Shown here: positions 5,000 to 26,238 of the stretch, in pieces
Layout of the letters: every line of letters starts with the position of its first letter
Position numbering within the stretch: position 1 is the first letter of the stretch
NCBI GenBank assembly: GCA_029551285.1
Contig: JAKPFT010000022.1
Location: 1-64,000, forward strand
DNA length: 64,000 bases
Direction of reading: 5' to 3'
DNA from: a bacterium
GTDB taxonomy: Bacteria > Ratteibacteria > UBA8468 > B48-G9 > DSTR01
The notes under the pieces: model-generated
Told to the model about the DNA's origin: nothing
What the model saw: the letters and a program-made list of their open reading frames with translations, nothing else
Databases searched by the model: none
Made by a program: the position numbers and the translations under genes

Positions 5000-6940
5000 A
5001 TGAAAAAACTACCTCTGCCCTATCTCCGGGTGAAACCGCAGGGAGAGGCTGCCTGGCAGGCGGCCGATTTGAAAATTGTTAGATTAAAAACTGAAGAAGA
5101 CGTGCTCTGTTATCAGGCAAAGTTAAGAGAAAAACACCGGCGGCTCTTCGGGCCTTTGTCTGACCCTGACAGAACTCCGGAATTTACCCGTGGAAAAACT
5201 TTCTGCTACCAGGATGTGGTGGTTCAACAGGTCCGGCTGGTGGCACCCGGTGGCTACCTGATTTCCGGGCTCTTTCTTTTACCGGAGCGAGTTAGAGAGA
5301 AACTACCCGGTCTGGTCTGGGCTTCCGGACACAATGAAGAAGCCTCCTTCAACGAACACTACCTTCAGTTCTGCCTTCTGGCCGCGACCAACGGGATGGC
5401 TGTCTTTGCCTTTGACCCGGCGGGACAGGGTTGCCGCCGCGAGGTTTTTCTCCCTGAGGATGACCCGGTTTACTGGTCGCCGTGCAATCAGCACCAGCAT
5501 CTCGGGGTGTTAACTGCTTTAGCCGGGTACCAGCTGGCCCATTTCTTTGCTTCTGACTGTGTCACAGCTGTCAGTTTTCTTCTCAGCCAGCCTGAGGTTG
5601 ACAGGGAAAAAATTGGTTTTGCTGGTCAGTCCGGAGGCGGCTTACAAACCTACCTGGCTATGGGTGCTGACCCCAGAATAAAGGTAGCCGTTCCCATGCA
5701 GGCGACCTCAACCCGCCGCGGGGCTTTTCGGCAACTTCAGGTCCGGGATCTGGAGCAGTGTTTCTTCAATTGCTGGGTGGAAGGTATTGACCATCATGAA
5801 ATGACACTCATCTTTGCGCCAAAGCCTGTCAGAATCGTGGCTGAGTTTGGTTACCAGGACCAGTTTGATGTTTACCGCAAACTAAAACCGGTTTACCAGA
5901 TACCGGGCGCTCCGGAAAACCTGGAAATTGTTTCGGCCGGCCCGGAGCACCGGATGAGAAGAAGCGAAAGAGAATTAGCCCTCTCCTGGTTAACCAGGCA
6001 CCTGAAACCAGCCGGTCTGCTTCGCTTTGACGTTGACTGGTCTGACTATCATTCCTTTCTGACCGAGTTGAAACAGCACCAGGCCCAGATAGACCTCAAG
6101 CACCATGGGCTTCTCTCCTTTTGTCGGAAAAGTATCGCGACCCGCCGACCGTTCTGGCGGGGTACGGCCGCTACCATCAGGCAGGTGCCGGCCCTCAAAA
6201 AAGCTTTCCAGGCGAAAGTTAGGCCGCTGGTTGACCTTCAGGGAAAATCTATCTTCAGATTACAACCCGGGAGGTATCGGCTGGTCTTTACTCCAGACTA
6301 CCGGATACCCGTGTGTATCTGCCGCGGTCAGGGAGAAAAGGGACTGGCCCTGCTGGTGGATGAGAAAGGTCTCGGGTCTGCCTGGACTCAGCGTCAGATA
6401 GAAAAGCTGGCCGCAGAAACAGCCTGGCTGGTGGCCATGGAGGTCTTCAACACCGGCCAGTTACGCACCAGTCTCAAACCCTGCCGGGAGGGAGTATTCC
6501 TGCAGCGGCACTGGCGCTACTATAGCCCGGACATCTATCATGCTGCCGATACTTTCATGCTGGGTTCTTGCCCGCTGGCTCTGACTATGGAAGAAGTTCT
6601 CACGCTGCTGGTTACCTTAAAGTCAGAAAAAGAAAGACTGGTCTTTTCCGGCAGAGGCTGGCCGGCCGTTGGTCTGATTCTGCTCAGTTCGGTTTTGCCT
6701 GCGGTGAAAAAATGTTTCGCGGAAAAAATTCCTTTCAGTTACCAGGAACTTTTTGATTCCGGCTACTTCTGGTTTGACATCAACCTGGTCATTCCCGGTA
6801 TCCTCAAATATACTGACCTTCCAGTCATCATCTCGGCCCGTACTAAAACCAACTTTTATCTAAAAAACAGGCTCAAACCGCCGGAAAGGAGGAAAAAAAC
6901 ATGGCGCTTCTTGACATCCACTTTCGCTCTGAGGTTTTGA
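5000..6940 (+). CDS. alpha/beta hydrolase, acetyl-xylan-esterase-like
   Basis: GHNEEASFNEHYLQFCLLAATNGMAVFAFDPAGQG and nucleophile elbow GFAGQSGGG. ORF can start at TTG 4976 or ATG 5000. Confidence 0.7.
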   Translation: MKKLPLPYLRVKPQGEAAWQAADLKIVRLKTEEDVLCYQAKLREKHRRLFGPLSDPDRTPEFTRGKTFCYQDVVVQQVRLVAPGGYLISGLFLLPERVREKLPGLVWASGHNEEASFNEHYLQFCLLAATNGMAVFAFDPAGQGCRREVFLPEDDPVYWSPCNQHQHLGVLTALAGYQLAHFFASDCVTAVSFLLSQPEVDREKIGFAGQSGGGLQTYLAMGADPRIKVAVPMQATSTRRGAFRQLQVRDLEQCFFNCWVEGIDHHEMTLIFAPKPVRIVAEFGYQDQFDVYRKLKPVYQIPGAPENLEIVSAGPEHRMRRSERELALSWLTRHLKPAGLLRFDVDWSDYHSFLTELKQHQAQIDLKHHGLLSFCRKSIATRRPFWRGTAATIRQVPALKKAFQAKVRPLVDLQGKSIFRLQPGRYRLVFTPDYRIPVCICRGQGEKGLALLVDEKGLGSAWTQRQIEKLAAETAWLVAMEVFNTGQLRTSLKPCREGVFLQRHWRYYSPDIYHAADTFMLGSCPLALTMEEVLTLLVTLKSEKERLVFSGRGWPAVGLILLSSVLPAVKKCFAEKIPFSYQELFDSGYFWFDINLVIPGILKYTDLPVIISARTKTNFYLKNRLKPPERRKKTWRFLTSTFALRF

Positions 6941-7629
6941 TAAAGCAGACCTCTCTGTACGTGGTGCTGCCGGAAAAACAGGGTCTATCCAGTTTTCGGG
7001 TCATCTATCTCCTGCACGGACTTTCTGATGATTACACCATCTGGCTGCGCCGCACCTGCGTGGAAAGGTACGCCGCAGAGTATGACTTCATGCTGGTAAT
7101 GCCGGATACCGGCCGCTTTTTTTACACCAACAGCGCTGACGGACTTCACCGGTACGAGGACCATATCCTGGAAGTGGTGGACTTCGTGGACAGAACTTTT
7201 CCCACAGTTAAAGTTGCTTCAGGTCGCGGCCTTACCGGAAACTCCATGGGCGGTTACGGAAGTCTCAAATTAGCCATCAAGTACCCGCATCTCTTCGGGT
7301 CGGTTTCGGCCCATTCTTCGCTGACCGATGTCGTCGGGTGGCTTCAGGGTCCGCCGGGCCGGGAGTTCAGCCGGATTTTTGGACAGCCGGTGAAACCGGA
7401 AAACGACCTTTTCTACCTCGCGGAAAAGGCTTCTTCCTGGCCAGCCGTGCGTTTTGATTGCGGCACCGAAGATGTTCTCCTGGAGCATAGCCGGCGCTTC
7501 CATGCCCATCTGAAGAAACTCAATCGCCCACATATTTACGAAGAATTCCCTGGCGCTCACGACTGGGCATACTGGGACCTGCATGTCCAGGATTCCTTTC
7601 GTTTCCACGCCGGGCTTAAAACTTCCTGA
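6901..7629 (+). CDS. esterase family protein (esterase D / S-formylglutathione hydrolase-like fold)
   Basis: YLLHGLSDDYTIW, GNSMGGYGSLKLA nucleophile elbow, HDWAYWD. Start overlaps the preceding CDS; SD AAAGGAGG. Confidence 0.8.
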   Translation: MALLDIHFRSEVLIKQTSLYVVLPEKQGLSSFRVIYLLHGLSDDYTIWLRRTCVERYAAEYDFMLVMPDTGRFFYTNSADGLHRYEDHILEVVDFVDRTFPTVKVASGRGLTGNSMGGYGSLKLAIKYPHLFGSVSAHSSLTDVVGWLQGPPGREFSRIFGQPVKPENDLFYLAEKASSWPAVRFDCGTEDVLLEHSRRFHAHLKKLNRPHIYEEFPGAHDWAYWDLHVQDSFRFHAGLKTS

Positions 7630-7631
7630 AA

Positions 7632-8615
7632 TCAGCCCTGGTTTTTCTTCCACTGACGCAGGGCTTCCAGCGCCACGGCCAGAGATTTCCTTCCTTCTTT
7701 TCCATCTACCAGCGGAATGCGGTCTTCTCTGACACAGTCCACGAAATGCTGCAACTGAGCGACAAAAGCCTTTCCCAGGCTGCCCGAAGAATGGCGGCCA
7801 ACCTTCCTTTGCCGGCCACCAGAAGTCACCAGGGTGAACCAGCGCGGTTTTTTCTCCTGGTAGGTCCCAAAAACAAGAAGACCGGACCGGCCCACCGCAT
7901 CCATGGTGTAACCAGCGGAAACGCCGGGCGGCAGACCCCAGGACCAGAAAAGATGAAGCCGGTCACCGGAAGCGAAAAACACATCTACCGAGCCGGTGTC
8001 CGGCGCGGTGCTTTCCTTGAAACGCAGCAGCGAACTTTTCACCTGTTTCACTTCCCCGAAAGTATAAATCGCAAAATCATAAGTGTGGACCGCTCCGTCC
8101 AGGAAAGGACCACCCCCTTTTTCCCAGTCAAAATACCAGGCAGCCTGTGGGCCGGAACCAAGTGCCAGCTGCCTCCAGATTACCGGATGGCCAATCACTC
8201 CCGAACGGACCAGTTCCCGAAACTTCAGCCATTCTTCGTCAAAGCGCCGGACAAAGCCAATCTGCAACTTGACCTTCATCTGCTCACAGGTCTTTATCAT
8301 CCGGTCAGCACCTTTCAACGTCCTGGCCATCGGCTTTTCACAGAAAACATGCTTGCCTGCCTGAGCCGCGGCCACCACAATCTCTTCATGGAGATAGGTT
8401 GGCGTAGCACAGATTACTCCGGTAATCTCCGGTAGTTCCAGCAATCTCCGGTAATCGCTGAACGTGCGTTCAATCCCGAAATCTTTTTTCACTCCGGCTA
8501 ACGTTTCGTCTGCCGGGTCAGCCGCAGCCGTTACCCTGGCTCCTTTTACCTGCTGAAGCATCCTCAGGTGATGCCGGCCGATGCCGCCACAACCAATCAG
8601 TCCCAGATTAACCAT
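7632..8615 (-). CDS. Gfo/Idh/MocA family oxidoreductase
   Basis: MVNLGLIGCGGIGRHHLRML Rossmann motif, FCEKPMARTL. ATG 8615 has SD AAAGGAGAG. Confidence 0.85.
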   Translation of the reverse strand: MVNLGLIGCGGIGRHHLRMLQQVKGARVTAAADPADETLAGVKKDFGIERTFSDYRRLLELPEITGVICATPTYLHEEIVVAAAQAGKHVFCEKPMARTLKGADRMIKTCEQMKVKLQIGFVRRFDEEWLKFRELVRSGVIGHPVIWRQLALGSGPQAAWYFDWEKGGGPFLDGAVHTYDFAIYTFGEVKQVKSSLLRFKESTAPDTGSVDVFFASGDRLHLFWSWGLPPGVSAGYTMDAVGRSGLLVFGTYQEKKPRWFTLVTSGGRQRKVGRHSSGSLGKAFVAQLQHFVDCVREDRIPLVDGKEGRKSLAVALEALRQWKKNQG

Positions 8616-12800: not shown

Positions 12801-14411
12801 CAGACTGGCCAGTCGTTTTCTCTCCGCCGGCCTGGCCGACTTTAACCTGGCCAGCCGGTCTTCCAGTTCCTGGTTGACTGTGATTATCTCCGGCAGGCCC
12901 GGTAAAGCCTGTTTAATCTCCAGAGCAGCCAGTATTCGCTCCGTCTTAAAGGCATGAGTGGTGGGTGAATCCCAGACTTCAACCCGTTCCCGATAGCCAA
13001 TTTTAAGGTCAGCACCATTTCTGGCAACAAGCTGGGTGTTGTCTGGCCAGTAAAAGGTTCTTCCTATTTTTTCTGGCGAAAGATTGCCCACGGGAATGGT
13101 TCCGCTCAATGAGCCAGATGATGTTATCATCTGGACTTCCACCGAGCCTTTCCGGTCAATCCGATAAATGGTGGCCTGTGGTCTTTGACCGAGAAAGGAA
13201 GAATCCTCCTGGCCACTTATTTCTATTTCCACACCGTAGGTTAGTTTCCCGGCGGCCAGTGTTACCACGGGACGATAACCAAGAAGTACAGGCCTGGCTT
13301 TTTCCCCGAAAAATTTTACTTCGCTTAACACTAAACTGTCGCTGAGATACAGGTAACGAGCCAGCCTTCTAAAACCGGTATAGGTCAGGGTCATCAGCGA
13401 CTCAGCCCCCATCAGTTCCGGCCGGTAGCAGAGTTCCACGGGAGGCGTAAAAGAAACACCGTCGTCAGAAAAGGAAAGGTGCAACCTGCATGGTTCAAAT
13501 CTTTCCTGCCGCCGGTCCACCACATCCGGCACAGAAACAGTTAGAGTAATTTCCATTCCTTCCACCGCGCAGACTGAGCCCAGGTCAAATATAACCCCCT
13601 CAGGACAGGATTGAAGCAGATACCGGTTCGCAGGATATTTGGCGACACCGGCCAGCACCGGATTTATATCTCCCTCAGGACCCGGGTCCCGGATACCATC
13701 CACTAAAATAGCTTCCGGCCAACCCGCCTTCACCCAATTTCGCCGGTCCCGGGTATAAGCCACAACCGGAAGTGATGGTTTCTCCACAAAGGTGTCCCGA
13801 AAAAAAATCAGGTCGTCAGCCGTGACCCGGCCAACAGCATTTTGCAGCCCCCAGGCTATCCTGACTGTGCTGGTCCCCGGCGGCAGGGTAAACCTCCGGA
13901 AAATTCTGCCTTCCTTCGCTACCCGGTAAAGATGCATGCCCTGTCTCCGGCCGCGGAAAACGAACCGGCTGGCCTCGTCCAGCCTCTTTCCGGCAGCGTC
14001 ATAACAGCGCACTTCAATTACCCCGCCCCCGGTTTTTTTCTCATCCACGGGAATAACTTCGTCTTCCTGGCCAGGTCCTCCGGAAAATAATCCGGTCAGC
14101 ACCCATGTTCCTGAACTATCCCTGATGTTTACCGGTGGAGAAACAAGCATGGCTCCAGGACTATTCCGGTCAGTTACCTCCAGACCGGCGGCGTGATATG
14201 CGCCCCGATTAAAAAGGTAGCACCTGCCGGCACCCTCCAGCGCCCACCCGGCCGGAAGACCGCCCACCCCGCGGTTGAAGGTTCCGTTCTCCAGAAGATT
14301 CACCTGTTCCTCAACCGGCCAGTAAGTATTCAGACCACTGCCCGGTCTAACTTCACCGCTGGCCAGAACTGAGAGAAAGGATATAATCAAAAAGACAAGT
14401 ATCCTTCGCAC
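9843..14411 (-). CDS. large secreted putative clan GH-A glycoside hydrolase (1522 aa)
   Basis: Signal peptide MRRILVFLIISFLSVLASG. TIM-barrel-like block RDGQQVFLWGGHWNHVPSKETIDLAVRLLPGMGVSSIRQIY...IAVEIANEDYG with a candidate acid/base NE; N-terminal beta-rich accessory regions. Confidence 0.65.
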   Translation of the reverse strand: MRRILVFLIISFLSVLASGEVRPGSGLNTYWPVEEQVNLLENGTFNRGVGGLPAGWALEGAGRCYLFNRGAYHAAGLEVTDRNSPGAMLVSPPVNIRDSSGTWVLTGLFSGGPGQEDEVIPVDEKKTGGGVIEVRCYDAAGKRLDEASRFVFRGRRQGMHLYRVAKEGRIFRRFTLPPGTSTVRIAWGLQNAVGRVTADDLIFFRDTFVEKPSLPVVAYTRDRRNWVKAGWPEAILVDGIRDPGPEGDINPVLAGVAKYPANRYLLQSCPEGVIFDLGSVCAVEGMEITLTVSVPDVVDRRQERFEPCRLHLSFSDDGVSFTPPVELCYRPELMGAESLMTLTYTGFRRLARYLYLSDSLVLSEVKFFGEKARPVLLGYRPVVTLAAGKLTYGVEIEISGQEDSSFLGQRPQATIYRIDRKGSVEVQMITSSGSLSGTIPVGNLSPEKIGRTFYWPDNTQLVARNGADLKIGYRERVEVWDSPTTHAFKTERILAALEIKQALPGLPEIITVNQELEDRLARLKSARPAERKRLASLANAELTPKLQTLGVEPGKISEFFSSFGVASLTGPELLPEKEFTSPDGKYLYRLARKSPDSFVIRKYDRVTGQFLSGEGHRGNYVTAGQVTCQQPRLNLERRLSNEEETLEKLAGLTDGWEKVNQFFLERGFRAAFRISFELPESGFWTLCYKTLGNFPESKMFFNGQPLTTPFRSGQQILPLPEGRSGKNELMVLADATSFKFSLESKPFSASFYHFILLKTAQPVFAFSNHHCFYQGSGEVTIIYGGEPVTLKIPEVEFQPAAIQFRSLLQPTEKTGIVTTRASDGQYVDRDGQQVFLWGGHWNHVPSKETIDLAVRLLPGMGVSSIRQIYGSESELDQATGQWKPEALDNVFYQVARFGQAGIYLDICLHSYGWYTDPDGAFYIVENGQDPRGRPISRLWNPTYLRAQKNYARELLTTVNPYTGKRLVDDPTLIAVEIANEDYGLGARKFDFEELAEPERTLVRQRFNEWLLQKYKTREKLAEAWAIEPLTPEEDPARGTIHFPPQFKTVLKSPNFFHRWDAEGRVASPRVSDALEWCWTEVYSFLRTMHDYLRSLGVKCSISWCGFSTYEIQMTNLHPYLQVCDSLGGSAYGAETNFRSLERWYKFGVFNHVWNKSTHVREWSAWNQGGDVAASTNGLVTAGLFGLAYGLDQWSHHKLGYGAYPSLDEEATSSINPDTDQRRAPFSFVGWAFRRAKIPVEPPRLLVGVPRTEACYGGLNSPCDTQPLKGGYCFLYDQVRMDYYLFDRVYDGPPDMVVLHEGRSPSGDYRRAKHAILWSHGKTDVTGRDQKEREKWFALHGITFKPGERWKKTEQFLAFNCDLVDDPELNGIIYDTLTEWGVKLPFSREEIHRVYATLDRSIEVSTEAGRLKVDRDDFQGWLGQKARQTGTSLLSVTSPSDRVQLLAIPFDTGSFQTAKQIALWSRTEATVTLNLAFVREPEIWAVNWLGYRKHRVYPLNWDRNSLTLRYQPDFDVHFYEIIR

Positions 14412-14435
14412 GAGAGCCTCTGAAAAGATAAAAAC

Positions 14436-15896
14436 TTACCGGAACCGGTCCTGTCTGGTGCCCCAGATAAGTTGATGGATGTAGTCTTCAAGATACCGGG
14501 CGTCCCGTTCGGAAACTTCCGTAAAACGGACCGAGTATAAATATGTGTTCCCCTTTTCTTCAACCGTACAAAAAGAAAATTTCACCTCGCATGATTTTCC
14601 GCCTAACGACATCCGCAGGGTATATTCCCGATCCGCCTTCAACGCCTGGTTACTTCTCAGCCTGGCCCCGCCCATACTCAGGTTGAGGACGGTCGCCGGA
14701 AAAGTACCGGCCCGGAAAACTCCGGGAAGAACAATCTCGGCCGCCAACGACAGGGAAAAAACCCTGGCCAGTTGCCGACGCTCAGGCCGCGGCGCTTGCA
14801 CCTGGCTGACAATCAGGGTTCGGTTGTCGGCAGAACGGACCACGCCAGAAGCGACAAAAAAGCCGCCATTTTCTTCAAAAACGACCTCCCCTGGCGAAAG
14901 CAGAACCTGTTTTTTCAGGGACTCCTGACCGTCCAGGGTGAAAACAAGTTCGCCCCCGGGCTCCTTCCGCATCAGTTCCACCCGATACTCCTGGCTGGCC
15001 ACCCGGATTGAAAAATTTTTCGCCCTGGCTACCCGTTCGGCAAAAGAGTTGTTGTTTTGCTCTGACCTGAGTTTCGGCGGATCACTCCTGCTTGTCGCCA
15101 TTACCTGCTGGATCTGCCACGGGTCTGGATGAGGAGCCTCCTCCGTCATCTCCAGGGCATAAACCAATTCATCAACGCTCTGATAGCGCTCCTTCGGGTC
15201 CCGCCGAGTAGCAATCTCCACAATCCGGGCCATCCGGGCCGGAAGAGGTAGATTGGAATGCCGAAAAAGTGACCGGATGGTGCAGCCAAAGGCATAGATA
15301 TCGGTGCGCTCATCGTAATGTCCCTGATGCTGTTCAGGAGCAAAATAGCCGCGGGTACCTGAGGCCGTGTCCGGAGTGCCAGGCAGGAGATTACGCCAGA
15401 GGGGATTGCTCCGGCCGGCGATGCCAAAATCACTGATTTTCAGTGTGTCCAGAGACCAGGAAACCAGGATATTGGATGGGTTAAAGTCACGGTGCACCAC
15501 GCCCCGGCTGTGAGCATACTTCAGTCCAGCGGCAGCCCGTTTTAGAATGGAAATAATTTCTTCCAGAGTAAAAGGCCGTCTGGCCGTGAATCTTCGCAGG
15601 TCAGTGTCCAGATACTCCATGAAAATGAGGAAATTGTCCTCAATCTCCCTGAAGGCGTGTACCTTGATGATGTACTCGTGCTGTAACGAGAGAATGATTC
15701 TGGCTTCGTCCCGAAATCTGCCCACTTCGGAACGCTCCACCCGCCGGGGATGAAGAATCTTCACCGCCACCACCGGTCCGAAAGCACCCTGGCCGCCAGC
15801 GGCCCGGGCTTTATACACAGCCGCAAAACCACCCGCGCCAATCAGGTCGGTAAGGACATAACCATCCACAATTGAACCGGAACGCAATTTTTCCAT
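14436..15896 (-). CDS. Ser/Thr protein kinase with C-terminal PilZ domain
   Basis: VVHRDFNPSNILVS catalytic loop and KISDFGIAG. C-terminal RQLAR (RxxxR) followed by NLSMGGARL ([D/N]xSxxG). Confidence 0.85.
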   Translation of the reverse strand: MEKLRSGSIVDGYVLTDLIGAGGFAAVYKARAAGGQGAFGPVVAVKILHPRRVERSEVGRFRDEARIILSLQHEYIIKVHAFREIEDNFLIFMEYLDTDLRRFTARRPFTLEEIISILKRAAAGLKYAHSRGVVHRDFNPSNILVSWSLDTLKISDFGIAGRSNPLWRNLLPGTPDTASGTRGYFAPEQHQGHYDERTDIYAFGCTIRSLFRHSNLPLPARMARIVEIATRRDPKERYQSVDELVYALEMTEEAPHPDPWQIQQVMATSRSDPPKLRSEQNNNSFAERVARAKNFSIRVASQEYRVELMRKEPGGELVFTLDGQESLKKQVLLSPGEVVFEENGGFFVASGVVRSADNRTLIVSQVQAPRPERRQLARVFSLSLAAEIVLPGVFRAGTFPATVLNLSMGGARLRSNQALKADREYTLRMSLGGKSCEVKFSFCTVEEKGNTYLYSVRFTEVSERDARYLEDYIHQLIWGTRQDRFR

Positions 15897-16322: not shown

Positions 16323-16340
16323 TTGTGAAATAAGGTACAA
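16323..16340. promoter_or_regulatory. candidate Rex operator (half-degenerate ROP-like site)
   Basis: TTGTGAAATAAGGTACAA: TTGTG...TACAA ends resemble the TTGTGAAxxxxTTCACAA Rex consensus; 7 bp upstream of rex ATG. Confidence 0.45.
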
Positions 16341-16347
16341 TATCGCC

Positions 16348-16977
16348 ATGATTGGTTACAGGAGCGTCATTCTCCGACTGTCGCACTACCGGCGTTGCCT
16401 CCGCCAGTTTGAGGAGCTGGGTTACACCCGTGTTTTCTCCAGGAATCTCGGCCAGGCCGCCGGGGTTTCCGCCGCGCAGGTGAGAAAAGACTTCTCGTTC
16501 TTTGGCCTTTCCGGGAGAAGGAAAGGTGGTTACATCATTGCCGAACTCCTGGAGAAAATCAACCAGATTCTTAAGAAGGACCGGATAGAGAAAGTCATTC
16601 TGGTGGGTGCCGGACACCTGGGTAATGCTCTTATCAAATACAAAGGATTTGAGAAGGAAGGAATGCAGATTGTAGCCGCCTTTGACGCTGATCCGGCCAA
16701 GCTGGGGAAAAAAGGTGAAGTTCCGGTTTATCCCATGGACGAACTTTTCCGTTTCGTCCGGGATTATGGCATCCGGGTAGCCATTCTCACCGTTCCGGCG
16801 GCTGTGGCGCAGGATGTCGGTGAGCGGCTGGTTTCAGCCGGAATCCGGGGTATTCTAAATTTTTCTCCCATTACCCTCAGACTTCCTGAGCGGGTCATCG
16901 TCAGTTACATCAACCTGGCCATTGAATTAGAGCATCTTCTTTACTACGTCAATGAAAGCCAAAGAGAAAACAGGTAA
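16348..16977 (+). CDS. rex: redox-sensing transcriptional repressor Rex
   Basis: YRRCLRQFEELGYTRVFSRNLGQAAGVSAAQVRKDFSFFG winged helix; VILVGAGHLGNALIKYKGF NAD-binding. Confidence 0.93.
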   Translation: MIGYRSVILRLSHYRRCLRQFEELGYTRVFSRNLGQAAGVSAAQVRKDFSFFGLSGRRKGGYIIAELLEKINQILKKDRIEKVILVGAGHLGNALIKYKGFEKEGMQIVAAFDADPAKLGKKGEVPVYPMDELFRFVRDYGIRVAILTVPAAVAQDVGERLVSAGIRGILNFSPITLRLPERVIVSYINLAIELEHLLYYVNESQRENR

Positions 16978-18883
16978 GCGGAAGTTTCATGTGCCGCTGC
17001 GGTTCAGAATCTTTGCTGGCTTCAGCCTGATCGTACTGCTGGTGGGAGTAATCATTTTTTTCTATGGCCGTTACTTCATTGCCCAGAATGTTATCGGCCG
17101 AGCCCAGCGGGAGGTTGCCAGGTCCCTTAAAGCAGCCTGGAGTGAGTACCGACACGAGCTGGACCGCCTGGCCCTGGTTACTGACTTCCTCACCCGTTTT
17201 CATGCCGTAAAGGCTATTGACAACAACCGGAGAGTTGAGGCAATTAAAGAACGTTACAATCTTGACTATGTCCTCATTGAGCATCCCACCGCAGAAAAAC
17301 TCCCTGCCGGCGTAACCACGGAAACAAAGATGCTCACGGCTGAAGAACTGAGGCGCATCTCTCCAGAACTGGCCCGGCGGGCTATCATTAAGGACCAACC
17401 CACGCCCATGGCCCGGACGACCGTCCTGGGAGAGCTGCGCGATGCTCTGGTGATAGAGGGTTCTGCGCCTATCTTTGATCAGCAGGGCATACCCCGGGGT
17501 ATCCTGCGCGTGGGTAAAATGCTCAATCGGAATTTTGCTTTAGTTGACCGGATACAGGAGACCATTTTCGGGAAACAAACTTCTGACGGAAAACCAACCG
17601 GGACCGTCACCATTTTTTTGGGAGAGCGACGTATTGCCACCACGGTTCTAACCGACACCGGAGAGCGAGCCATTGGTACCTTTCTTTCCTGCGCCGTTTC
17701 CGACAAGCTTTATGGCCAGGGACTTTCCTGGAATGACCGTGCCTTCGTGGTCAACGACTGGTATCTCACGGCCTATGACCCCATTCGCAGCCGGGACGGT
17801 AAAATTATTGGCATTCTCTATGTGGGTATTCTTGAACGTCCCTTCATTCGAATCAAAGAGCAGATGTATTTCAACCTCGGCCTTTTGCTTCTCTCCGTGG
17901 TTCTGGTGTGTCTCTTCCTTTCTTACCGCATCGCCAGCGGCATCACCATACCGGTGTTGAAAGTGACTTCGGCAGCCCAGGCCCTTTCCCGGGGAAACTG
18001 GGAAGTCCGGGTGAGGACACCAACCTCGGTGGATGAAATAAACATCCTCTCGGAAACTTTCAATATGATGGCTGAAGAACTTCAGCGGGAACGCCAGGCC
18101 TTAATAGAAGCCAATCAGAAACTGGAAGCGGCCAACAGAAACTATCTCAACATGGTCGGTTTTGTTTCTCATGAATTAAAAGGGGTGCTTGGCTCCATTA
18201 TTATGAACATTTACGCTCTCAAGGATGGCTACCTCGGGACGCTCAACCCATCTCAGCAGAAGGCTCTCAACGCAGCCGCGCGCAGCCTGGAACACTTTGA
18301 AATGATGGTCAAGAATTACCTTGACCTGTCTCGCATTGAAAAAGGGGAATTGAAATTGACCAGACAGACCCTGAACCTTTTTGAAGATGTCATCAAACCC
18401 TGTCTGGCTACCTTTGAGAAACCTCTTCAGGAAAAGAAGATGAGGGTGGAAAAGGAAGTACCGCCTGACCTGGTGCTTTCCGGAGACCGCAGTTTGCTTC
18501 AGATTGTTTTCAATAACCTTTTCTCCAATGCCATTAAGTATGGAGCAGCCGGCGGTCTGATTAAAATCACCTGCCGCAAAGAAAAGGGGCTGCTTTACGT
18601 GGAGGTTTACAATGATGGCCGGCCGATTCCGCCCGAGCAGTTGCCCCTTCTTTTCCAGCGTTTCAGCCGGCTTCCCGAGACAGGGCAGGTGAAGGGAACC
18701 GGTCTGGGTCTTTTCATTACCAAAGAAATCATTGAAAAACACGGCGGCCGTATCTGGGCTCAACCCGGGTTTACCGGCAATGCCTTTTGCTTCACACTCA
18801 ACCGAGGAGAAACCGATGGAACTGAGTGCCCTGGAAAAACTGAAGAAGGCAAGACAGAAGGCCATCCACGAAAATCTGAGTAA
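16952..18883 (+). CDS. sensor histidine kinase (cache-like extracytoplasmic sensor, HAMP, HisKA, HATPase)
   Basis: Two TM segments flanking a sensor region, HAMP-like ITIPVLKVTSAAQALSRGNWEVRV, H-box FVSHELKGVLGSI, N-box NNLFSNAIKYG, G-box GTGLGLFITKEIIEKHGG. Confidence 0.9.
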   Translation: MKAKEKTGKRKFHVPLRFRIFAGFSLIVLLVGVIIFFYGRYFIAQNVIGRAQREVARSLKAAWSEYRHELDRLALVTDFLTRFHAVKAIDNNRRVEAIKERYNLDYVLIEHPTAEKLPAGVTTETKMLTAEELRRISPELARRAIIKDQPTPMARTTVLGELRDALVIEGSAPIFDQQGIPRGILRVGKMLNRNFALVDRIQETIFGKQTSDGKPTGTVTIFLGERRIATTVLTDTGERAIGTFLSCAVSDKLYGQGLSWNDRAFVVNDWYLTAYDPIRSRDGKIIGILYVGILERPFIRIKEQMYFNLGLLLLSVVLVCLFLSYRIASGITIPVLKVTSAAQALSRGNWEVRVRTPTSVDEINILSETFNMMAEELQRERQALIEANQKLEAANRNYLNMVGFVSHELKGVLGSIIMNIYALKDGYLGTLNPSQQKALNAAARSLEHFEMMVKNYLDLSRIEKGELKLTRQTLNLFEDVIKPCLATFEKPLQEKKMRVEKEVPPDLVLSGDRSLLQIVFNNLFSNAIKYGAAGGLIKITCRKEKGLLYVEVYNDGRPIPPEQLPLLFQRFSRLPETGQVKGTGLGLFITKEIIEKHGGRIWAQPGFTGNAFCFTLNRGETDGTECPGKTEEGKTEGHPRKSE

Positions 18884-21800
18884 ATGGACTGCCAGTACCA
18901 GAATCAACATCGGCATGTCCACGTGCGAAATCGCTGCCGGGTCCAGAATAGTCTGGGACGTTATTACTGGCGAAATCAGAAAACGAAAAATTCAAGACGT
19001 CTATGTGGGGCAGAAGGGATGTGTGGGACGCTGCCACTGTGAACCGACGGTGGAAGTCTTCCAGTTCGGCCAGCCTCCTTTTAAGTACGAAAACGTTGAT
19101 GCGGCTAAAGCCAGAGAGATTGTCCACCGCCACCTGGTAAAGAAGACTTCACCCGGAGAAAAAACTGATCTGGCTCACAGCGTCAGCAGCCAGGTTCTAA
19201 CCGACAAATCCCGCTTCATCTTCGGAGACATGCCTTACTTTGTTAAACAGAGAAGGCTGGCTCTGCGCAACTGCGGGGTTATTGACCCTGAATCCATTGA
19301 CGACTATCTGGCCATCCGGGGCTACGAAGCCTTAGCCAGGGTTCTCACCGAGTACACCCCGGAGCGGGTCATTGAAGAAGTGAGCAGGTCCGGGCTGAGG
19401 GGCCGGGGTGGCGGCGGCTTTCCCACCGGGCTGAAATGGCGGCTGGTGGCTGAGCAACCCGGTGAGGAAAAATTCGTCATCTGTAATGCGGATGAGGGCG
19501 ACCCGGGCGCCTTTATGGACCGGGGAGTGATTGAAGGCGACCCGTTCACGGTACTGGAAGCTATGGCTATCGGAGGTTATGCCGTGGGAGCCCGACAGGG
19601 CATTGTTTACATTCGGGCGGAATATCCTCTGGCTGTGACTCGCCTGCGGAAAGCCATCGGGCAGGCGCGCCACCTCCACCTTCTTGGAGAAAACATTCTG
19701 GGAACTGGTTTTTCCTTTGACGTGGAGATTGTTTTAGGGGCAGGTGCTTTTGTGTGCGGTGAAGAGACCGCCTTGATTCACTCCATTGAGGGCAGCCGGG
19801 GTATGCCCCGACTCCGCCCGCCCTACCCTTCTGTCAAAGGTCTCTGGGGAAAACCAACCGTCATCAACAATGTGGAAACATGGGCCAACATCCCCGTAAT
19901 TATCCTGGACGGCTGGGAAAACTTTACCGCCGTCGGCACAGAAAAAAGCAAGGGGACTAAAGTCTTCGCCCTGGCCGGAAAGGTCCAGAATACAGGGCTG
20001 GTAGAGGTTCCCATGGGCATGACACTGGGCGAGGTGATTTTTGACATCGGCGGCGGAATTAAAAATGGGAAAAAGTTCAAAGCGGCTCAAACAGGGGGAC
20101 CCTCGGGAGGCTGCTTACCGGTCCAGTTTCTCAACACGCCCATTGATTACGAGTCTCTGACCAGAGCCGGCTCCATCATGGGCTCCGGCGGTTTGATTGT
20201 GATGGACGAAAATGACTGTATGGTGGACGTCGCCAAGTTCTTTCTGGAATTCACCCAGGATGAATCGTGCGGCAAATGCGTTCCCTGCAGAGAAGGTACC
20301 AAAAGGATGTTAGAAATTTTAGAACGGATTAGCCGCGGCCAGGGGAAAGAGGAGGACCTGGAGAAACTGGAACGTCTGGGGCAGACCATTAAGAAAACCG
20401 CTCTGTGCGGTCTCGGTCAAACCGCACCCAATCCTGTTCTTTCCACCCTTCGCTATTTCCGGCACGAGTATGAGAGCCACATCCGGGAGCGGCTGTGTCC
20501 GGCGGCAGTCTGTGCCGAACTTTTCGTTTCTCCCTGTCAGCATACCTGTCCAGCCCACATTGACATCCCTGTCTTTATCGGCCAGATTAAGCACGGAAAG
20601 ACCCGGGAGGCTCTGAGAACTATTCTGGACCGTAATGTTCTGCCTTCAGTCTGTGGCCGGGTCTGTCACCACCCCTGCCAGGCTCACTGCCGGCGGGCCA
20701 AAATTGATGAGCCTGTTTCCATCATGCTTTTGAAACGTTTTGCCGCTGATTACGACAGAGCAGGCGACATGCCGCTGGATACTGAGAAAAAACCAGCCCG
20801 ACCGGAGAAGGTGGCAGTCATCGGTAGTGGTCCGGCTGGCCTGGCGTGTGCCGCCTGGCTGGTCAGGTTCGGCTACAATGTCACCATCTTTGAAGCCGAA
20901 AAAAAGCTGGGTGGCATGCTGAGATTGGGCATCCCTGAATACCGCTTACCCAGAGATATCCTTGACCGGGATATAGACCGCATCAAAAAAGCGGGGGTGA
21001 AGATAAAAACCGGTGTCCGGGTAGGCCAGGAGATAACCCTGGAGATGCTCCGGCACCAGGGCTTTAAGGCTTTCTTCCTGGGAGTGGGCGCCTGGCAGGA
21101 GTCTCCCCTGAAAATACCCGGGACTGAGCTGACAGGCGTAGTAGGTTCTCTCAGTTTCCTCAAGGCTTACAATTGCGGTCAGATTAAAAAAATCAGGGAT
21201 GGTTGGACCTACCTCAGCGGTAATAAACCAGTGCTCATCTCCGGCCGCCGCGTGGCGGTCATCGGCGGTGGTAACGCAGCCATGGATGTGGCCAGGACCT
21301 GCCTGCGGCTGGGCGCCAGAGAGGTGCATGTCATCTACCGGCGTTCCCGGGAGGCCATGCCGGCCATTCCGGAAGAAGTGGCCGAAGCAGAAAAAGAAGG
21401 TGTTCGGTTCCACTTCCTGCTTGTTCCCGAGGAAATCAAAGGCCAGAATGGCAGCGTTGCGGAAATAGTTTGCGCCAGTACCCGCCCGGGAGAATTTGAT
21501 GAGACCGGCCGGCGTAAGGCAGTGGCAACAGAAGAAAAGATTGTTTTCCCGGTAGAAGTGGTGATTAGTGCCATTGGCGGCCGTCCTCAAATGTCTCCGG
21601 AGATGAAGGAGAAACTTTCCCTTACAGCCTGGGGAACAATCAAGATTGACCCGCTCACCATGGCCACCAGTCAACCGGATGTTTTTGCTGGTGGAGATGT
21701 CACTACCGGCGGAGGAACGGTCATTGACTCCATGGCTGACGGCGAAAAAGCGGCCATTTCCATTGACCGCTACCTCCGCGGAGAATGCCTTACCGGGAAC

Positions 21801-22004
21801 CGTTTTGTTTACCGCGGTGAACGCCAGACAGTTCCAGCCTCAGACCTGCCGGGGGACCTTTCCCGGGCCGATGCGGAAAAACCCCAACAACTACCCCTGA
21901 AGTATCGGCTGGCCGGGTTTGAAGAAGTGGAACGCGGGTATAACAGAAAACAGGCTATCAGCGAAGCCTCAAGATGTCTGCGCTGTGACCGAAAGGAGAG
22001 TTAA
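18816..22004 (+). CDS. hydB: HydB/NuoF-like diaphorase subunit fused to GltD/NfnB-like NADPH oxidoreductase
   Basis: N-terminal thioredoxin-like 2Fe-2S (STCEIAAGS...GCVGRCHCEP), NuoF GRGGGGFPTGLKW and SCGKCVPCREGT. C-terminal CQHTCPAHIDIP...CGRVCHHPCQAHCRR Fer4 cluster domain and VAVIGSGPAGLACA / VAVIGGGNAAMDVARTCLRLG...VIYRRSREAMP. ATG 18816 with SD GAGGAGAAACCG. Confidence 0.9.
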   Translation: MELSALEKLKKARQKAIHENLSKWTASTRINIGMSTCEIAAGSRIVWDVITGEIRKRKIQDVYVGQKGCVGRCHCEPTVEVFQFGQPPFKYENVDAAKAREIVHRHLVKKTSPGEKTDLAHSVSSQVLTDKSRFIFGDMPYFVKQRRLALRNCGVIDPESIDDYLAIRGYEALARVLTEYTPERVIEEVSRSGLRGRGGGGFPTGLKWRLVAEQPGEEKFVICNADEGDPGAFMDRGVIEGDPFTVLEAMAIGGYAVGARQGIVYIRAEYPLAVTRLRKAIGQARHLHLLGENILGTGFSFDVEIVLGAGAFVCGEETALIHSIEGSRGMPRLRPPYPSVKGLWGKPTVINNVETWANIPVIILDGWENFTAVGTEKSKGTKVFALAGKVQNTGLVEVPMGMTLGEVIFDIGGGIKNGKKFKAAQTGGPSGGCLPVQFLNTPIDYESLTRAGSIMGSGGLIVMDENDCMVDVAKFFLEFTQDESCGKCVPCREGTKRMLEILERISRGQGKEEDLEKLERLGQTIKKTALCGLGQTAPNPVLSTLRYFRHEYESHIRERLCPAAVCAELFVSPCQHTCPAHIDIPVFIGQIKHGKTREALRTILDRNVLPSVCGRVCHHPCQAHCRRAKIDEPVSIMLLKRFAADYDRAGDMPLDTEKKPARPEKVAVIGSGPAGLACAAWLVRFGYNVTIFEAEKKLGGMLRLGIPEYRLPRDILDRDIDRIKKAGVKIKTGVRVGQEITLEMLRHQGFKAFFLGVGAWQESPLKIPGTELTGVVGSLSFLKAYNCGQIKKIRDGWTYLSGNKPVLISGRRVAVIGGGNAAMDVARTCLRLGAREVHVIYRRSREAMPAIPEEVAEAEKEGVRFHFLLVPEEIKGQNGSVAEIVCASTRPGEFDETGRRKAVATEEKIVFPVEVVISAIGGRPQMSPEMKEKLSLTAWGTIKIDPLTMATSQPDVFAGGDVTTGGGTVIDSMADGEKAAISIDRYLRGECLTGNRFVYRGERQTVPASDLPGDLSRADAEKPQQLPLKYRLAGFEEVERGYNRKQAISEASRCLRCDRKES

Positions 22005-22008
22005 AGCC

Positions 22009-23793
22009 ATGAATGAGAAAAAAGTGACACTGACCATTGACGGTATTCAGGTCGTGGCCCGGGCTGACGCCACCATTATGGAAGCCGCGGAAATCGCTGG
22101 CCTTTGTATCCCCCGGCTCTGTTACCACTCCAGGCTGAGTGAGGCTGGCGCCTGCCGGGTCTGCATCGTTGAGGTTGAAGGAATGAAAAACTTTGTGCCC
22201 TCCTGTTGCACCAGAGTAGCCGAAGGGATGGTGGTCCGCACCAATAGCCCGGACCTGCTGAAGGCAAGACGGGACATCGTGGAGTTACTCCTTGACAACC
22301 ATCCGGAAGATTGCCAGACCTGCGCACGAAACGGCGATTGCGAACTTCAAACCCTGGCCCAGCAGTTCGGCATCAGGGAAAGGTTGTATCAGGGCGAGAG
22401 GAAGCATTTTCCGGTTGATATCTCCTCAGCTTCCATTGTCCGGGACCCTGACAAATGCATCCTCTGTGGCAAGTGCGTTCGGGTCTGTTCAGAAATTCAG
22501 GGTGTCAACGCCCTCTCCTTCAGCCACCGTGGTTTCAGGACCAACGTCGGGCCAGCCTTTGACCTGCCGGCCGCGGAAAGCGTCTGCGTCAACTGCGGGC
22601 AATGCACCCTGTTTTGCCCCACAGGCGCGCTCACGGAACGGGACGATACGGAAAAAGTCTGGCAGGCCTTAAGCGACCCGAGTAAAGTGGTTGTGGTCCA
22701 GATTGCACCGGCGGTCAGGGTGGCGCTTGGAGAACCCTTCGGTTTCCAGCCGGGAACAGACCTCACCGGCCAGACTGTGGCGGCTCTACGGCGGCTGGGC
22801 TTTGACCGTGTCTTTGACACGCAGTTCTCCGCGGACTTAACCATCATGGAGGAAGCCCACGAACTCCTGCACCGTCTCGCTCACGGCGGGAAACTGCCCA
22901 TGTTTACTTCCTGTTCCCCCGCCTGGATTAAATTCTGCGAGCACTTCCACCCTGATTTTCTGGAGAACCTTTCCACCTGCAAGTCTCCCCAGCAGATGAT
23001 GGGCGCATTAATCAAGACCTATTACGCGCGGAAACAGGGCTTAGAGGCGGCTTCCATCTACAGCGTAAGTATCATGCCGTGTACCGCCAAGAAATTTGAG
23101 GCGGCCAGACCGGAGATGAAAGCCAGTTCTTTCCAGGACGTGGATGCGGTTTTGACCACCAGGGAACTGGCCCGGATGATCAAACAGGCTGGCCTGAAAT
23201 TCTCCGAGTTAAAACCGGAAGAATTTGACGACCCGCTGGGCGAATCCACCGGAGCCGCCACCATTTTCGGGGTTACCGGTGGTGTCCTGGAAGCTGCTCT
23301 GCGAACTGCCTACGAAGCGGCCACAGGCAAGGAGCTGGAAAGAGTTGACTTTAACCAGGTCCGGGGATTTGAAGGTATCCGGGAAGCAGAGATTGACCTT
23401 GACGGCACCAGGATAAAAGTGGCGGTGGTCCACGGTCTGGCCAATACTCACCGGCTTCTTACCGAGATCAGAGCCGGTCAGCGGCATTATCATTTCGTGG
23501 AGGTTATGACCTGCCCCGGCGGCTGCCTGGGCGGAGGCGGCCAGCCGCGGCCACCTCAGGGGACCGAGCCCCTGGACAGGTCTTTCTATCAGAAACGAGC
23601 CGCCGGAATTTACACCATTGACAGCAGGAAAATCATCCGGCAATCCCATAAGAATCCCCAGATTAAACAGATTTACGCTGAGTTTCTGGGAACACCTCTG
23701 GGAGAAAAATCTCATCACCTTTTGCATACGCATTATCACCACCGGACCCCGAAAGGGTTTGCCAGTATTCGTGAGGAAATTTTTAACCTTTAA
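22009..23793 (+). CDS. hydA: [FeFe] hydrogenase catalytic subunit HydA
   Basis: L1 FTSCSPAWIKF, L2 MPCTAKKFE, L3 VMTCPGGCLGGGGQP; N-terminal 2Fe-2S, His-Cys cluster region and two CxxCxxCxxxC ferredoxin motifs. Confidence 0.95.
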   Translation: MNEKKVTLTIDGIQVVARADATIMEAAEIAGLCIPRLCYHSRLSEAGACRVCIVEVEGMKNFVPSCCTRVAEGMVVRTNSPDLLKARRDIVELLLDNHPEDCQTCARNGDCELQTLAQQFGIRERLYQGERKHFPVDISSASIVRDPDKCILCGKCVRVCSEIQGVNALSFSHRGFRTNVGPAFDLPAAESVCVNCGQCTLFCPTGALTERDDTEKVWQALSDPSKVVVVQIAPAVRVALGEPFGFQPGTDLTGQTVAALRRLGFDRVFDTQFSADLTIMEEAHELLHRLAHGGKLPMFTSCSPAWIKFCEHFHPDFLENLSTCKSPQQMMGALIKTYYARKQGLEAASIYSVSIMPCTAKKFEAARPEMKASSFQDVDAVLTTRELARMIKQAGLKFSELKPEEFDDPLGESTGAATIFGVTGGVLEAALRTAYEAATGKELERVDFNQVRGFEGIREAEIDLDGTRIKVAVVHGLANTHRLLTEIRAGQRHYHFVEVMTCPGGCLGGGGQPRPPQGTEPLDRSFYQKRAAGIYTIDSRKIIRQSHKNPQIKQIYAEFLGTPLGEKSHHLLHTHYHHRTPKGFASIREEIFNL

Positions 23794-23806
23794 TCAAGGA
23801 GAAACG

Positions 23807-24406
23807 ATGAAAAAAAATAGACTGGACACGGCTGAGGCCGGAGTTTCTCTGACTTCTCTTTCAGAATTTATTGACAGGGCCAGGCCGCTGCGCAACGCTC
23901 AGAGTCTACTCATGGGCACGCTCCACCATACCCAGGAACTTTTCGAATACATTCCCAGGGAAGCGGTGGAACTTATCTCGGAAAAGTTGAATCTGCCCAC
24001 GGCCCATATCTACGGTATGATTACCTTCTACAATTATTTCTCCCTCAAGCCAAGACCGGCCTACCAGATTCATGTCTGCAAGGGTACCGCCTGCTATGTC
24101 TCCGGTGGCTCAAGGGTTCTGGAAAGGCTCAAACAGGAATTAAAGATTGACGTGGGAGAAGTAACCCCTGATGGTCTGTTTGGCCTCAACGTGACGCGCT
24201 GTCTCGGTTGTTGCGGACTGGCACCGGTGATGCAGGTCAATGAGGATGTTTATGTCCGGGTGGTGCCGGAACGTTTGCCCGCTATCCTGAATTCCTATCG
24301 TCAGAAAGGAATTAGAGGAAAAGCCAGCACCAGGGTTGGCGCATTTGAACATCCCGGCCAGTCACGGTATGATAATAAAAGGCAAGCAACAGGCAGGCGG
24401 CGATGA
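23807..24406 (+). CDS. hydC: NuoE/HydC-like thioredoxin-like 2Fe-2S subunit
   Basis: VCKGTACYVSGG and CLGCCGLAPVMQVNEDVY. ATG 23807 with SD AAGGAGAAACG. Confidence 0.92.
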   Translation: MKKNRLDTAEAGVSLTSLSEFIDRARPLRNAQSLLMGTLHHTQELFEYIPREAVELISEKLNLPTAHIYGMITFYNYFSLKPRPAYQIHVCKGTACYVSGGSRVLERLKQELKIDVGEVTPDGLFGLNVTRCLGCCGLAPVMQVNEDVYVRVVPERLPAILNSYRQKGIRGKASTRVGAFEHPGQSRYDNKRQATGRRR

Positions 24407-24798
24407 TCAAACGGATTCTGATTATTGACGATGATGTGGATTTTGCCGAAGCCTGCTGTAATTTTCTGGAAGCGGCCGGATATGAGACCTCTTACGAGAC
24501 AGATGCCAGCAAAGCTCTGGAGAAAATCCAGGCCAGCAAACCAGACCTTATTTTGCTGGATGTGGTCATGCAGGAACAGGATAGTGGCTTCCGGCTGGCA
24601 GAGTTGCTGAACCGCGATTTGAAGTTGCGACAGATACCGGTAATCTTCCTTACCGGATACTTCAAAAAAACGGAGAGCCAGGAACAGCAAGAACTCATCA
24701 AGAAGTGGCCCAATGTATACGGAGTTCTGGACAAACCGGTTAAACCTTCAATCTTGATGGAGGTTGTCCAGAAGGTTAGCCCGGATACTGGGCGGTGA
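24403..24798 (+). CDS. stand-alone response regulator receiver domain protein
   Basis: ILIIDDDVDF, LILLDVVM phospho-acceptor, VIFLTGY, DKPVKP. ATGA overlap with hydC. Confidence 0.9.
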   Translation: MIKRILIIDDDVDFAEACCNFLEAAGYETSYETDASKALEKIQASKPDLILLDVVMQEQDSGFRLAELLNRDLKLRQIPVIFLTGYFKKTESQEQQELIKKWPNVYGVLDKPVKPSILMEVVQKVSPDTGR

Positions 24799-24819
24799 AA
24801 TCAACGAAAAGGAGAAAAA

Positions 24820-25206
24820 ATGGCCAGGAAAATTCTGGTGGTGGACGACGACCCTGATTTTGTAGAAGGTACTGTCAGTGTCTTACAGGCTGAAGGATTT
24901 AACGCCATCTCTGCCAGCAACGGCGCGGAAGGTTTTGCCAGAGCCAGGCAGGAAAAACCAGACTTGATCTTGCTGGACGTGATGATGACCCACAAAACTG
25001 AAGGCTTTGATATTGCCCGGAACCTCAAAAACGATGCGACCACCTGTGAAATACCGGTGGTAATTATCACCGGTATCCGAAAAGATATGAACCTGCCTTT
25101 TGGTTTTGAACCTGATGAGGACTGGCTGCCAGTTAAAGCCGTGCTGGAAAAGCCCATCAAACCTGAAACGTTGCTTAAGACCGTCAGAGAGGTCCTCGGT
25201 TCCTGA
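24820..25206 (+). CDS. stand-alone response regulator receiver domain protein
   Basis: ILVVDDDPDF, LILLDVMM, VVIITGI, EKPIKPETL. Confidence 0.9.
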   Translation: MARKILVVDDDPDFVEGTVSVLQAEGFNAISASNGAEGFARARQEKPDLILLDVMMTHKTEGFDIARNLKNDATTCEIPVVIITGIRKDMNLPFGFEPDEDWLPVKAVLEKPIKPETLLKTVREVLGS

Positions 25207-25212
25207 CATTGT

Positions 25213-26238
25213 TCACCAATTTTTCAGGGCTGTTTCTATCAGGGCCAGCAGATTCTCATCAGGGACATCTGCCTGCAGGGTAATACCGTTGCTGAGGATA
25301 TAGCCGCCGCCACACCCCATCACTTTCTTCAACCGGCGCACTTCTTCAACCACCTGTCCCGGGCTGGCCTTCACCAGAGTATCCTGCGTGCTTACTCCTC
25401 CAAAAAAGGTAAGCCTCTGCCCGTATCTCTTTTTCAGAAAGAAAATGTCCATACACTCCGGCTGAACTGGATGCAGCACATCACAGCCAATCTCAATCAA
25501 ATCCGGAATAATCTCCCTGATATCGCCGTCAGAGTGATGCATCACGAATCTGCCTTCCTTTCTGATTAACTGGTAAATCCTGGCCAGACGCGGCTTGATA
25601 AACCGGCGCCACTGGTGTGGAGAAATAAGCAGTCCATGCTGGGTTGGGTAATCATCGCTGATGGCTACGGCTTCAAAACGGAAATTTTTCAGAATAATTT
25701 CCGCTGTCTGAAGAAGATAGTCAGTGAGTTTATCCAGCAGGGCCTGAACAAAATCCGGATGCAGCATGAGGTCGGTCAGAAGCTCTTCCATTCCCCTCAT
25801 GAAGGTCGCCCTTTCTCAGAAATCCCCCATCCAGATTATCCGGAACTGACCCTCGTATTGCTGGCACCAGGCAGCCAGATGCTGGAAACGTGCAGGAACC
25901 GTCGCTTGCGGAAAGACGTAGCCGTTCAGCGTCGGCTGTCTGAGCCAGGGTTCAACAGGCGCTCCCCGATCCTGCTGGCTGCTCTTTCATAACACACCAA
26001 ATTCATCAGCCACAGTCTCGCCGTAAACTTCCGGGTCGGCAGAGAGAGGTTTTTGTCCCCGAACACCGTTGGCCACGACTGGATAGTGCAACATCTTTTC
26101 CAGGGGAGTACCAAAAAGCCGTTCGGCCTTCGCCCGGGCGGGTGGGGTGAAGTCAAAATAGTAGGGAAGAGACACCAGCAGCGAGTGAGCAAGCGCGGCC
26201 AGAACCCACTCTCTGTCTGTCATCAGCAGCGCTCCCAA
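25213..26238 (-). pseudogene. uroporphyrinogen decarboxylase (URO-D)-like protein interrupted by two in-frame TGA codons
   Basis: N-terminal ORF (to 25987) and C-terminal ORF (25800-25213) are in one frame: ...TVADEFGVL*KSSQQDRGAPVEPW...RIIWMGDF*ERATFMRGMEELLTDL...ISDDYPTQHGLLISPHQWRRFIKPRL. TGA at 25989-25987 and 25818-25816. Confidence 0.75.

Follow-up and report, generated by a model that had tools for sequence, protein, structure and literature searches.

A GltD module in place of the ferredoxin-docking domain of HydB: a candidate [FeFe]-hydrogenase linking H2, NAD(H) and NADP(H)

The window analysed here, by which we mean the whole 64,000-nucleotide stretch of contig JAKPFT010000022.1 (assembly GCA_029551285.1) from a bacterium of the Ratteibacteria, contains a tight operon of seven genes at 16348-25206. 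The genes, all of which lie on the + strand, are as follows.

16348-16977, + strand: Rex-type redox-sensing repressor (NADH/NAD+ sensor), first gene of the operon (Pfam Put_DNA-bind_N and CoA_binding)
16952-18883, + strand: sCache sensor histidine kinase (Pfam sCache_3_3, HAMP, HisKA and HATPase_c)
18816-22004, + strand: hydB-gltD fusion gene, 1,062 aa, ATG start at 18816 (Pfam, single ORF, AlphaFold2 and Foldseek)
22009-23793, + strand: hydA, [FeFe]-hydrogenase subunit with NuoG-like N-terminal clusters, ATG start (Pfam, NCBIfam NF040763 and motifs)
23807-24406, + strand: hydC, NuoE-like [2Fe-2S] subunit with four of four Cys, ATG start (Pfam 2Fe-2S_thioredx and sequence)
24403-24798, + strand: response regulator receiver protein, its start overlapping the hydC stop (Pfam)
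24820-25206, + strand: second response regulator receiver protein (Pfam)

Intergenic gaps within the operon range from -68 to +21 nt, the 3′ end of the histidine kinase gene running 68 nt into the start of hydB-gltD, and a Shine-Dalgarno-like sequence precedes the start of each of hydB-gltD, hydA and hydC. A Rex homologue is also present in the corresponding operon of another locus in our sample (L149), and the sCache histidine kinase is retained at L035 and L149. We do not claim a Rex operator upstream of rex, as the candidate at 16323-16340 has three mismatches and matches across the window were no more frequent than in shuffled sequences. The surroundings of the operon (2764-61427) are abundant in carbohydrate-active enzymes (GH42, GH38, GH123-like and an acetyl xylan esterase-like protein), together with a sulfatase, and include several ORFs of 770-1,170 aa that matched no Pfam family. 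On the - strand at 25213-26238 there is a uroporphyrinogen-decarboxylase-like frame (family assigned by eye) that is interrupted twice by an in-frame TGA where Trp is expected (DEFGVL*, GDF*ERA). It looks like a decaying gene, because no other stop codon is as common in the window as TGA; general recoding of TGA, which these codons had suggested, was rejected, given that TGA terminates 18 of the 36 window ORFs checked.

The original prediction, of a HydB fused to a complete GltD and followed by HydA and HydC at 18816-24406, had its coordinates right, the fusion being a single ORF with the corresponding Pfam domains. The artefact that could have produced it, an assembly error or frameshift joining two ORFs, was rejected on the grounds that the identical junction occurs in independent genomes: the same architecture is found in the sister genome (G001; 84% identity) and in 46 further genomes, so the fusion is genuine. 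Along the protein, Pfam places Complex1_51K at residues 189-360, followed by SLBB, NADH_4Fe-4S at 471-555, Fer4_20 at 562-649 (in two stretches overall) and Pyr_redox_2 at 665-971. AlphaFold2, with 44 fusion sequences as input, returned a model with a mean pLDDT of 88.1 and a pTM of 0.86. In Foldseek searches, the N-terminal half matched StnB, NfnABC-B and HydB (TM-scores, taken by target length, reached 0.97); for the C-terminal half, the matches were to the GltD region in StnC and in its homologue from Caldicellulosiruptor. The parts of the fusion can be assigned as follows.

18897-19145, + strand: N-terminal Trx-like [2Fe-2S]-type domain, residues ~28-110, with three of the usual four Cys (C37, C69, C73) (alignment to StnB and NfnABC-B; conservation)
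19284-20483, + strand: NuoF/HydB core, with FMN and NAD(H) site, SLBB and a [4Fe-4S] cluster bound by C485, C488, C491 and C531 (Pfam and alignments)
20217-20513, + strand: Zn-hinge ligands C468, H555, C561 and C566 (homology to the 3Cys/1His Zn site of HydB; PMC9499530)
20526-20762, + strand: Fer4_20 segment of the GltD module, with C574, C578, C617, C621, C625 and, at the proximal-cluster ligand position, K640 (Pfam, conservation and alignment)
20823-20840, + strand: FAD-binding GxGxxG motif, G670, G672 and G675 (Pfam and 44-sequence alignment)
21249-21350, + strand: NADP(H)-binding Rossmann motif, Y841-R842-R843 in VIYRRSR (near-invariant in 44 fusions; aligned with NfnB and StnC)
21975-21986, + strand: C-terminal CLRC pair, C1054 and C1057, equivalent of the N-terminal RCLxC of NfnB (alignments)

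In the 44-fusion alignment, there is no variation at the four Zn-hinge ligands, at C485/C488/C491/C531 or in the FMN glycine loop.

Enzymes of the HydABC type are known to bifurcate electrons with ferredoxin as one partner. We aligned the fusion with ferredoxin-type HydB proteins, including a paralogue from genome G162 whose gene lies ~5 kb upstream of a fusion gene within one cluster (locus L150), and found that the two types are colinear through the Zn motif, H-x5-C-x4-C, and then diverge. Beyond this motif, ferredoxin-type HydB continues into CxxCxxCxxxCP motifs and the fusion into the SPCQHTCP of GltD; the latter begins straight after the Zn-hinge motif (CPAxVC), where ferredoxin-type HydB has its two-[4Fe-4S] docking domain. 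Judged from the alignment, the ferredoxin-docking C-terminal domain of HydB, which is absent from the fusion, has been exchanged exactly after the Zn hinge for an FAD module of the GltD/StnC type, a replacement that the original prediction did not contain. In characterised HydABC and Stn enzymes, the HydB-type C-terminal domain is the one that docks ferredoxin; it holds clusters B3/B4, and a swinging movement about the Zn hinge has been proposed for it (PMC9499530, PMC10482914).

Within the GltD module, C574, C578, C617, C621 and C625 do not vary among 54 fusions, of which 52 have K640. The earlier reading of residues 574-625 as a full Fer4 cysteine set needs correcting: the set is incomplete alone, as two of the eight ligands are C1054/C1057 and a third is K640. 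No FAD or NADPH ligand proved to be missing; the GltD ligands, the FAD site and the NADPH motif are all invariant or nearly so. The CLxC pair has moved to the extreme C-terminus in the fusion, as in StnC, whereas the RCLxC of NfnB opens the Fer4_20 domain. In addition, K640 aligns to K170 of StnC, at a position occupied by Glu in NfnB, and R710 aligns to R239 of StnC and R201 of NfnB, an Arg near N5 of the FAD (numbers counted from the alignments). By these alignments, the module belongs to a StnC-like subtype with a Lys ligand and a relocated C-terminal CLxC. Since the FAD of StnC has been shown to deliver electrons without bifurcating (PMC10482914), and K640 and R710 match StnC, the GltD FAD of the fusion is probably a plain NADP(H) port and not a second site of bifurcation.

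How widespread this arrangement is had been left as a question for a domain-architecture search. The single-ORF fusion was found in 48 of the 386 sampled genomes, spread over 37 families, with several partners besides HydA; seven of the 35 genomes from the window's own phylum have it, and its carriers include metagenome-assembled genomes of Candidatus Omnitrophota, Deltaproteobacteria and Syntrophorhabdaceae. In a NuoF-core tree built from 134 proteins (a quick tree with some long branches), the fusion label changes 15 times, with at least nine changes forced by well-supported branches, and gain and loss indistinguishable from the counts. The idea that the fusions are one ancient lineage was rejected, as a single clade is incompatible with the tree (p-AU 3e-5). 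The window's clade, comprising four genomes, is sister to the ferredoxin-domain HydB of L038 and L150 (SH-aLRT 96). Given that the fusions are not monophyletic, the HydB core appears able to change its output domain repeatedly.

The immediate partner of the fusion is an [FeFe] HydA in the window and in about 16 other cases. Elsewhere, we found Mo-pterin oxidoreductases of the formate-dehydrogenase type with NuoG-like N-termini (Pfam-verified in L100, L102, L135, L142, L162 and L167), a NuoG-like protein with a [NiFe]-hydrogenase large subunit (L133), a glutamate-synthase-like protein (L138, L148 and L157; Pfam) and, near the fusion of L096, a homologue of the complex I 49-kDa subunit. Such varied partners, from hydrogenases of both kinds to Mo-pterin and glutamate-synthase-like proteins, fit the expectation for a general NAD/NADP adaptor. 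Several loci have features of their own. A HoxU-like protein adjoins HydB-GltD in L138, L144, L148 and L157, and these loci, with the glutamate-synthase-domain protein of L138, L148 and L157, possibly encode an NAD/NADP-linked glutamate synthase complex. L162 and L168 (G142 and G278) have Mo-pterin subunits on both sides of the fusion (Pfam-verified in L162) together with a short NuoF, and a double formate-dehydrogenase-like complex is possible there. Finally, in the fusion operons of L151, L152, L130, L131, L145, L037, L081 and L153, a second NuoE and a short NuoF of the non-bifurcating type adjoin HydA, i.e., there are two NAD modules per operon.

HydA of the window has the Pfam domains Fer2_4, NADH-G_4Fe-4S_3, Fer4, Fe_hyd_lg_C and Fe_hyd_SSU and all three H-cluster motifs, L1-L3 (TSCSPAW, MPCTAKKFE and CPGGCLGGGGQP). 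We considered whether TSCSP, in place of TSCCP, is tied to the fusion, and rejected this; the motif tracks lineage, since TSCS also occurs in related HydA proteins that accompany a ferredoxin-type HydB and in A. woodii HydA1 (TSCSPGW). At L150 (5344-15386), two paralogous FeFe-hydrogenase sets adjoin, one with a ferredoxin-type HydB (13557-15386), whose HydA has the variant motifs TSCSSAW and MCCTAKKYE, and one with HydB-GltD (5344-8508), a natural pair to compare.

The predicted proteins have every cofactor ligand and both nucleotide sites, and sequence and operon together make it well supported that these sites are part of a single complex with the hydrogenase subunit. We consider it likely that this complex works with H2, NAD(H) and NADP(H) and does without ferredoxin. 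The reading that the evidence favours is a HydABC-type [FeFe]-hydrogenase in which NADP(H) replaces ferredoxin as the lower-potential partner, possibly with bifurcation, and we give it even chances; whether the two nucleotide reactions are tightly coupled is similarly balanced. Electrons from H2 would pass from the H-cluster through the HydA clusters and the HydB [4Fe-4S] cluster to FMN, where NAD+ would be reduced; in a second branch, they would leave FMN by way of the HydC [2Fe-2S] cluster (and the HydB N-terminal cluster, if present) for the two GltD clusters, FAD and NADP+. The net reaction would be 2 H2 + NAD+ + NADP+ <-> NADH + NADPH + 2 H+, reversible, and coupling would probably depend on the same hinge gating as in HydABC. 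The route to the GltD clusters via HydC and hinge, like the coupling, is one that we infer from HydABC and Stn. We count in support that Rex heads the operon and that the fusion is the sole HydB/NuoF, and hydA the sole HydA, found in the genome. Points against it are the GltD module, which is far bigger than the ferredoxin domain it replaces and might block the motion of the hinge; the HydB N-terminal cluster site, with three conserved Cys and not four in the window's clade; and the assembly of the H-cluster, for which neither HydF nor HydG was found in this genome or its sister (see below). More tentatively, and with somewhat less confidence than in the enzyme itself, we propose a ferredoxin-independent class of bifurcating enzymes, in which the FMN of HydBC would split electrons to NAD+ (high branch) and to NADP+ (low branch, via a GltD module attached at the Zn hinge where the ferredoxin domain would be), whilst interchangeable BfuA subunits would connect H2, formate, glutamate or other third substrates.

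The main alternative, which we regard as unlikely but far from negligible, is a dual-specificity, non-bifurcating hydrogenase in which H2, NAD(H) and NADP(H) equilibrate on one cluster chain, in effect an H2-linked transhydrogenase without energetic coupling. It draws on the loss of the ferredoxin domain, which accompanies non-bifurcation in the S. wolfei and S. aciditrophicus enzymes (PMC7311640, PMC9304861), on HydA, which scores above the cut-off for NCBIfam NF040763 (titled 'NADH-dependent, group A6'), and on the short NuoF of several fusion operons. One mark of the non-bifurcating class is a HydB without its two C-terminal [4Fe-4S] clusters; in the fusion that domain is absent and two GltD clusters occupy its place. 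The residues of the HydB core argue against uncoupled equilibration. Bifurcating beta-subunits are marked by A/E232, M234, F367 and GGPSG, and non-bifurcating ones by T/S232, K/S/A234, Y367 and no GGPSG (PMC7311640). The core of the fusion has A232, M234, F312 and GGPSG, and not the non-bifurcating, NADH-dependent set; A/M, F and GGPSG are retained by 47-49 of 51 fusions, and the short NuoF proteins mostly have the non-bifurcating T/K and Y. Furthermore, the fusion keeps the Zn hinge, which is missing from non-bifurcating Nqo1 (PMC9499530), and equilibration without coupling would amount to a short circuit between the pools of NADH and NADPH.

The original prediction had suggested that the enzyme may have four carriers, ferredoxin among them; in that view the GltD FAD would bifurcate as in NfnAB, or a double bifurcation would occur. 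The GltD homologue NfnB does bifurcate at its FAD, and the Arg near N5 is conserved, but the same Arg is shared by StnC, the proximal ligand is the Lys of StnC and not the Glu of NfnB, the operon has no NfnA homologue, and the known ferredoxin-docking domain is missing. What finds support in that proposal is the combination of NAD and NADPH sites with HydA and HydC, all with conserved ligands; its ferredoxin leg finds none, nor, given the StnC-type ligand, does double bifurcation, and we consider the four-carrier enzyme improbable. We attach just as little likelihood to a hydrogenase site that is unmatured in the window's genus, leaving an NADH:NADPH (or other donor) transhydrogenase only: neither HydF nor HydG was found over the cut-off in the window's genome (93% complete) or its sister (77%), and relatives with the same operon type have both, but these two are incomplete metagenome-assembled genomes, their H-cluster motifs are intact, and HydA shows the same degree of conservation between the two as the fusion does.

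Returning to an NADP(H)-linked hydrogenase of the HydABC type, we calculated equilibrium H2 pressures from physiological potentials of -280 mV for NADH, -380 mV for NADPH and -500 mV for ferredoxin (PMC9304861), and obtained ~145 Pa for a 1:1 combination of NADH and NADPH, compared with ~3 Pa if NADH is the only partner and ~15 kPa if it is combined with ferredoxin. The swap recurs in many unrelated bacteria, and through it hydrogen, NAD and NADP could exchange electrons in one machine without ferredoxin. Were this so, anaerobes would gain a direct valve between H2, NADH and NADPH; with an NADPH domain put in so exactly and repeatedly at the site of a ferredoxin domain, domain swapping would be a way of changing the low-potential partner, and the fusions would amount to a natural test of which parts of HydB bifurcate.

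The architecture itself is already in print. The trimeric [FeFe]-hydrogenase of Vallitalea guaymasensis L81, encoded by peg.3894-3896, was reported in 2018 to have an enlarged HydB in which GltD follows the FMN/NADH domain and replaces the two-[4Fe-4S] domain, and its authors suggested a second NAD(P)H site and a link to glutamate metabolism (PMC6163223). By its description, this protein has the same architecture as the window fusion; the account is one passing sentence in a genome paper, without residue analysis, distribution or mechanism. It is the sole direct match that we found in the open-access full-text literature, in which no report of an experimentally tested HydB-GltD enzyme was apparent, and in which the spread, the ligand logic, the repeated origin or loss and the range of partners do not appear to have been described.

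Other known systems share parts of the enzyme. [FeFe]-hydrogenases of HydDB group A2 are likewise associated with GltD, but in that group the protein encoded downstream of hydA has GltD and no NuoF (PMC5037454), whereas the window has a NuoF-GltD fusion gene upstream of hydA, with hydC downstream. NfnAB has the GltD fold, the FAD and NADPH site and the conserved Arg in common with the fusion, and differs in the Glu cluster ligand of NfnB and in its NfnA partner. As for NfnAB elsewhere in the window's genome, one GltD homologue (contig C34) has nothing NfnA-like beside it within the stretch that was read, and another (contig C28) sits in a large GltB-like ORF (both judged by eye). In the Bfu work, GltD is placed on BfuA and the full BfuB cluster set is required (PMC9304861); a text search of PMC9304861 gave no mention of GltD or fusions. 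The HydABC enzymes of A. woodii, T. kivui and T. maritima, which are the best PDB matches, share HydA, HydC, the HydB core and the Zn hinge, and differ from the window enzyme in keeping the C-terminal ferredoxin-docking domain of HydB where the latter has GltD. Stn, or Nfn-Bfu (NfnABC), shares both a HydB/HydC-like core and the same GltD subtype, with its Lys ligand and relocated CLxC (PMC10482914, PMC7483475, PMC9304861); C1054/C1057 align to the C-terminal CLEC of StnC, and the N-terminal Trx-like domain of StnB likewise has three of the usual four Cys. In Stn, however, GltD is carried by the NuoG-like StnC and serves as an entry point for electrons, the ferredoxin domain of StnB is retained and there is no hydrogenase, whereas the window enzyme has GltD on HydB, at the site of the ferredoxin domain, and HydA as its BfuA-type subunit.
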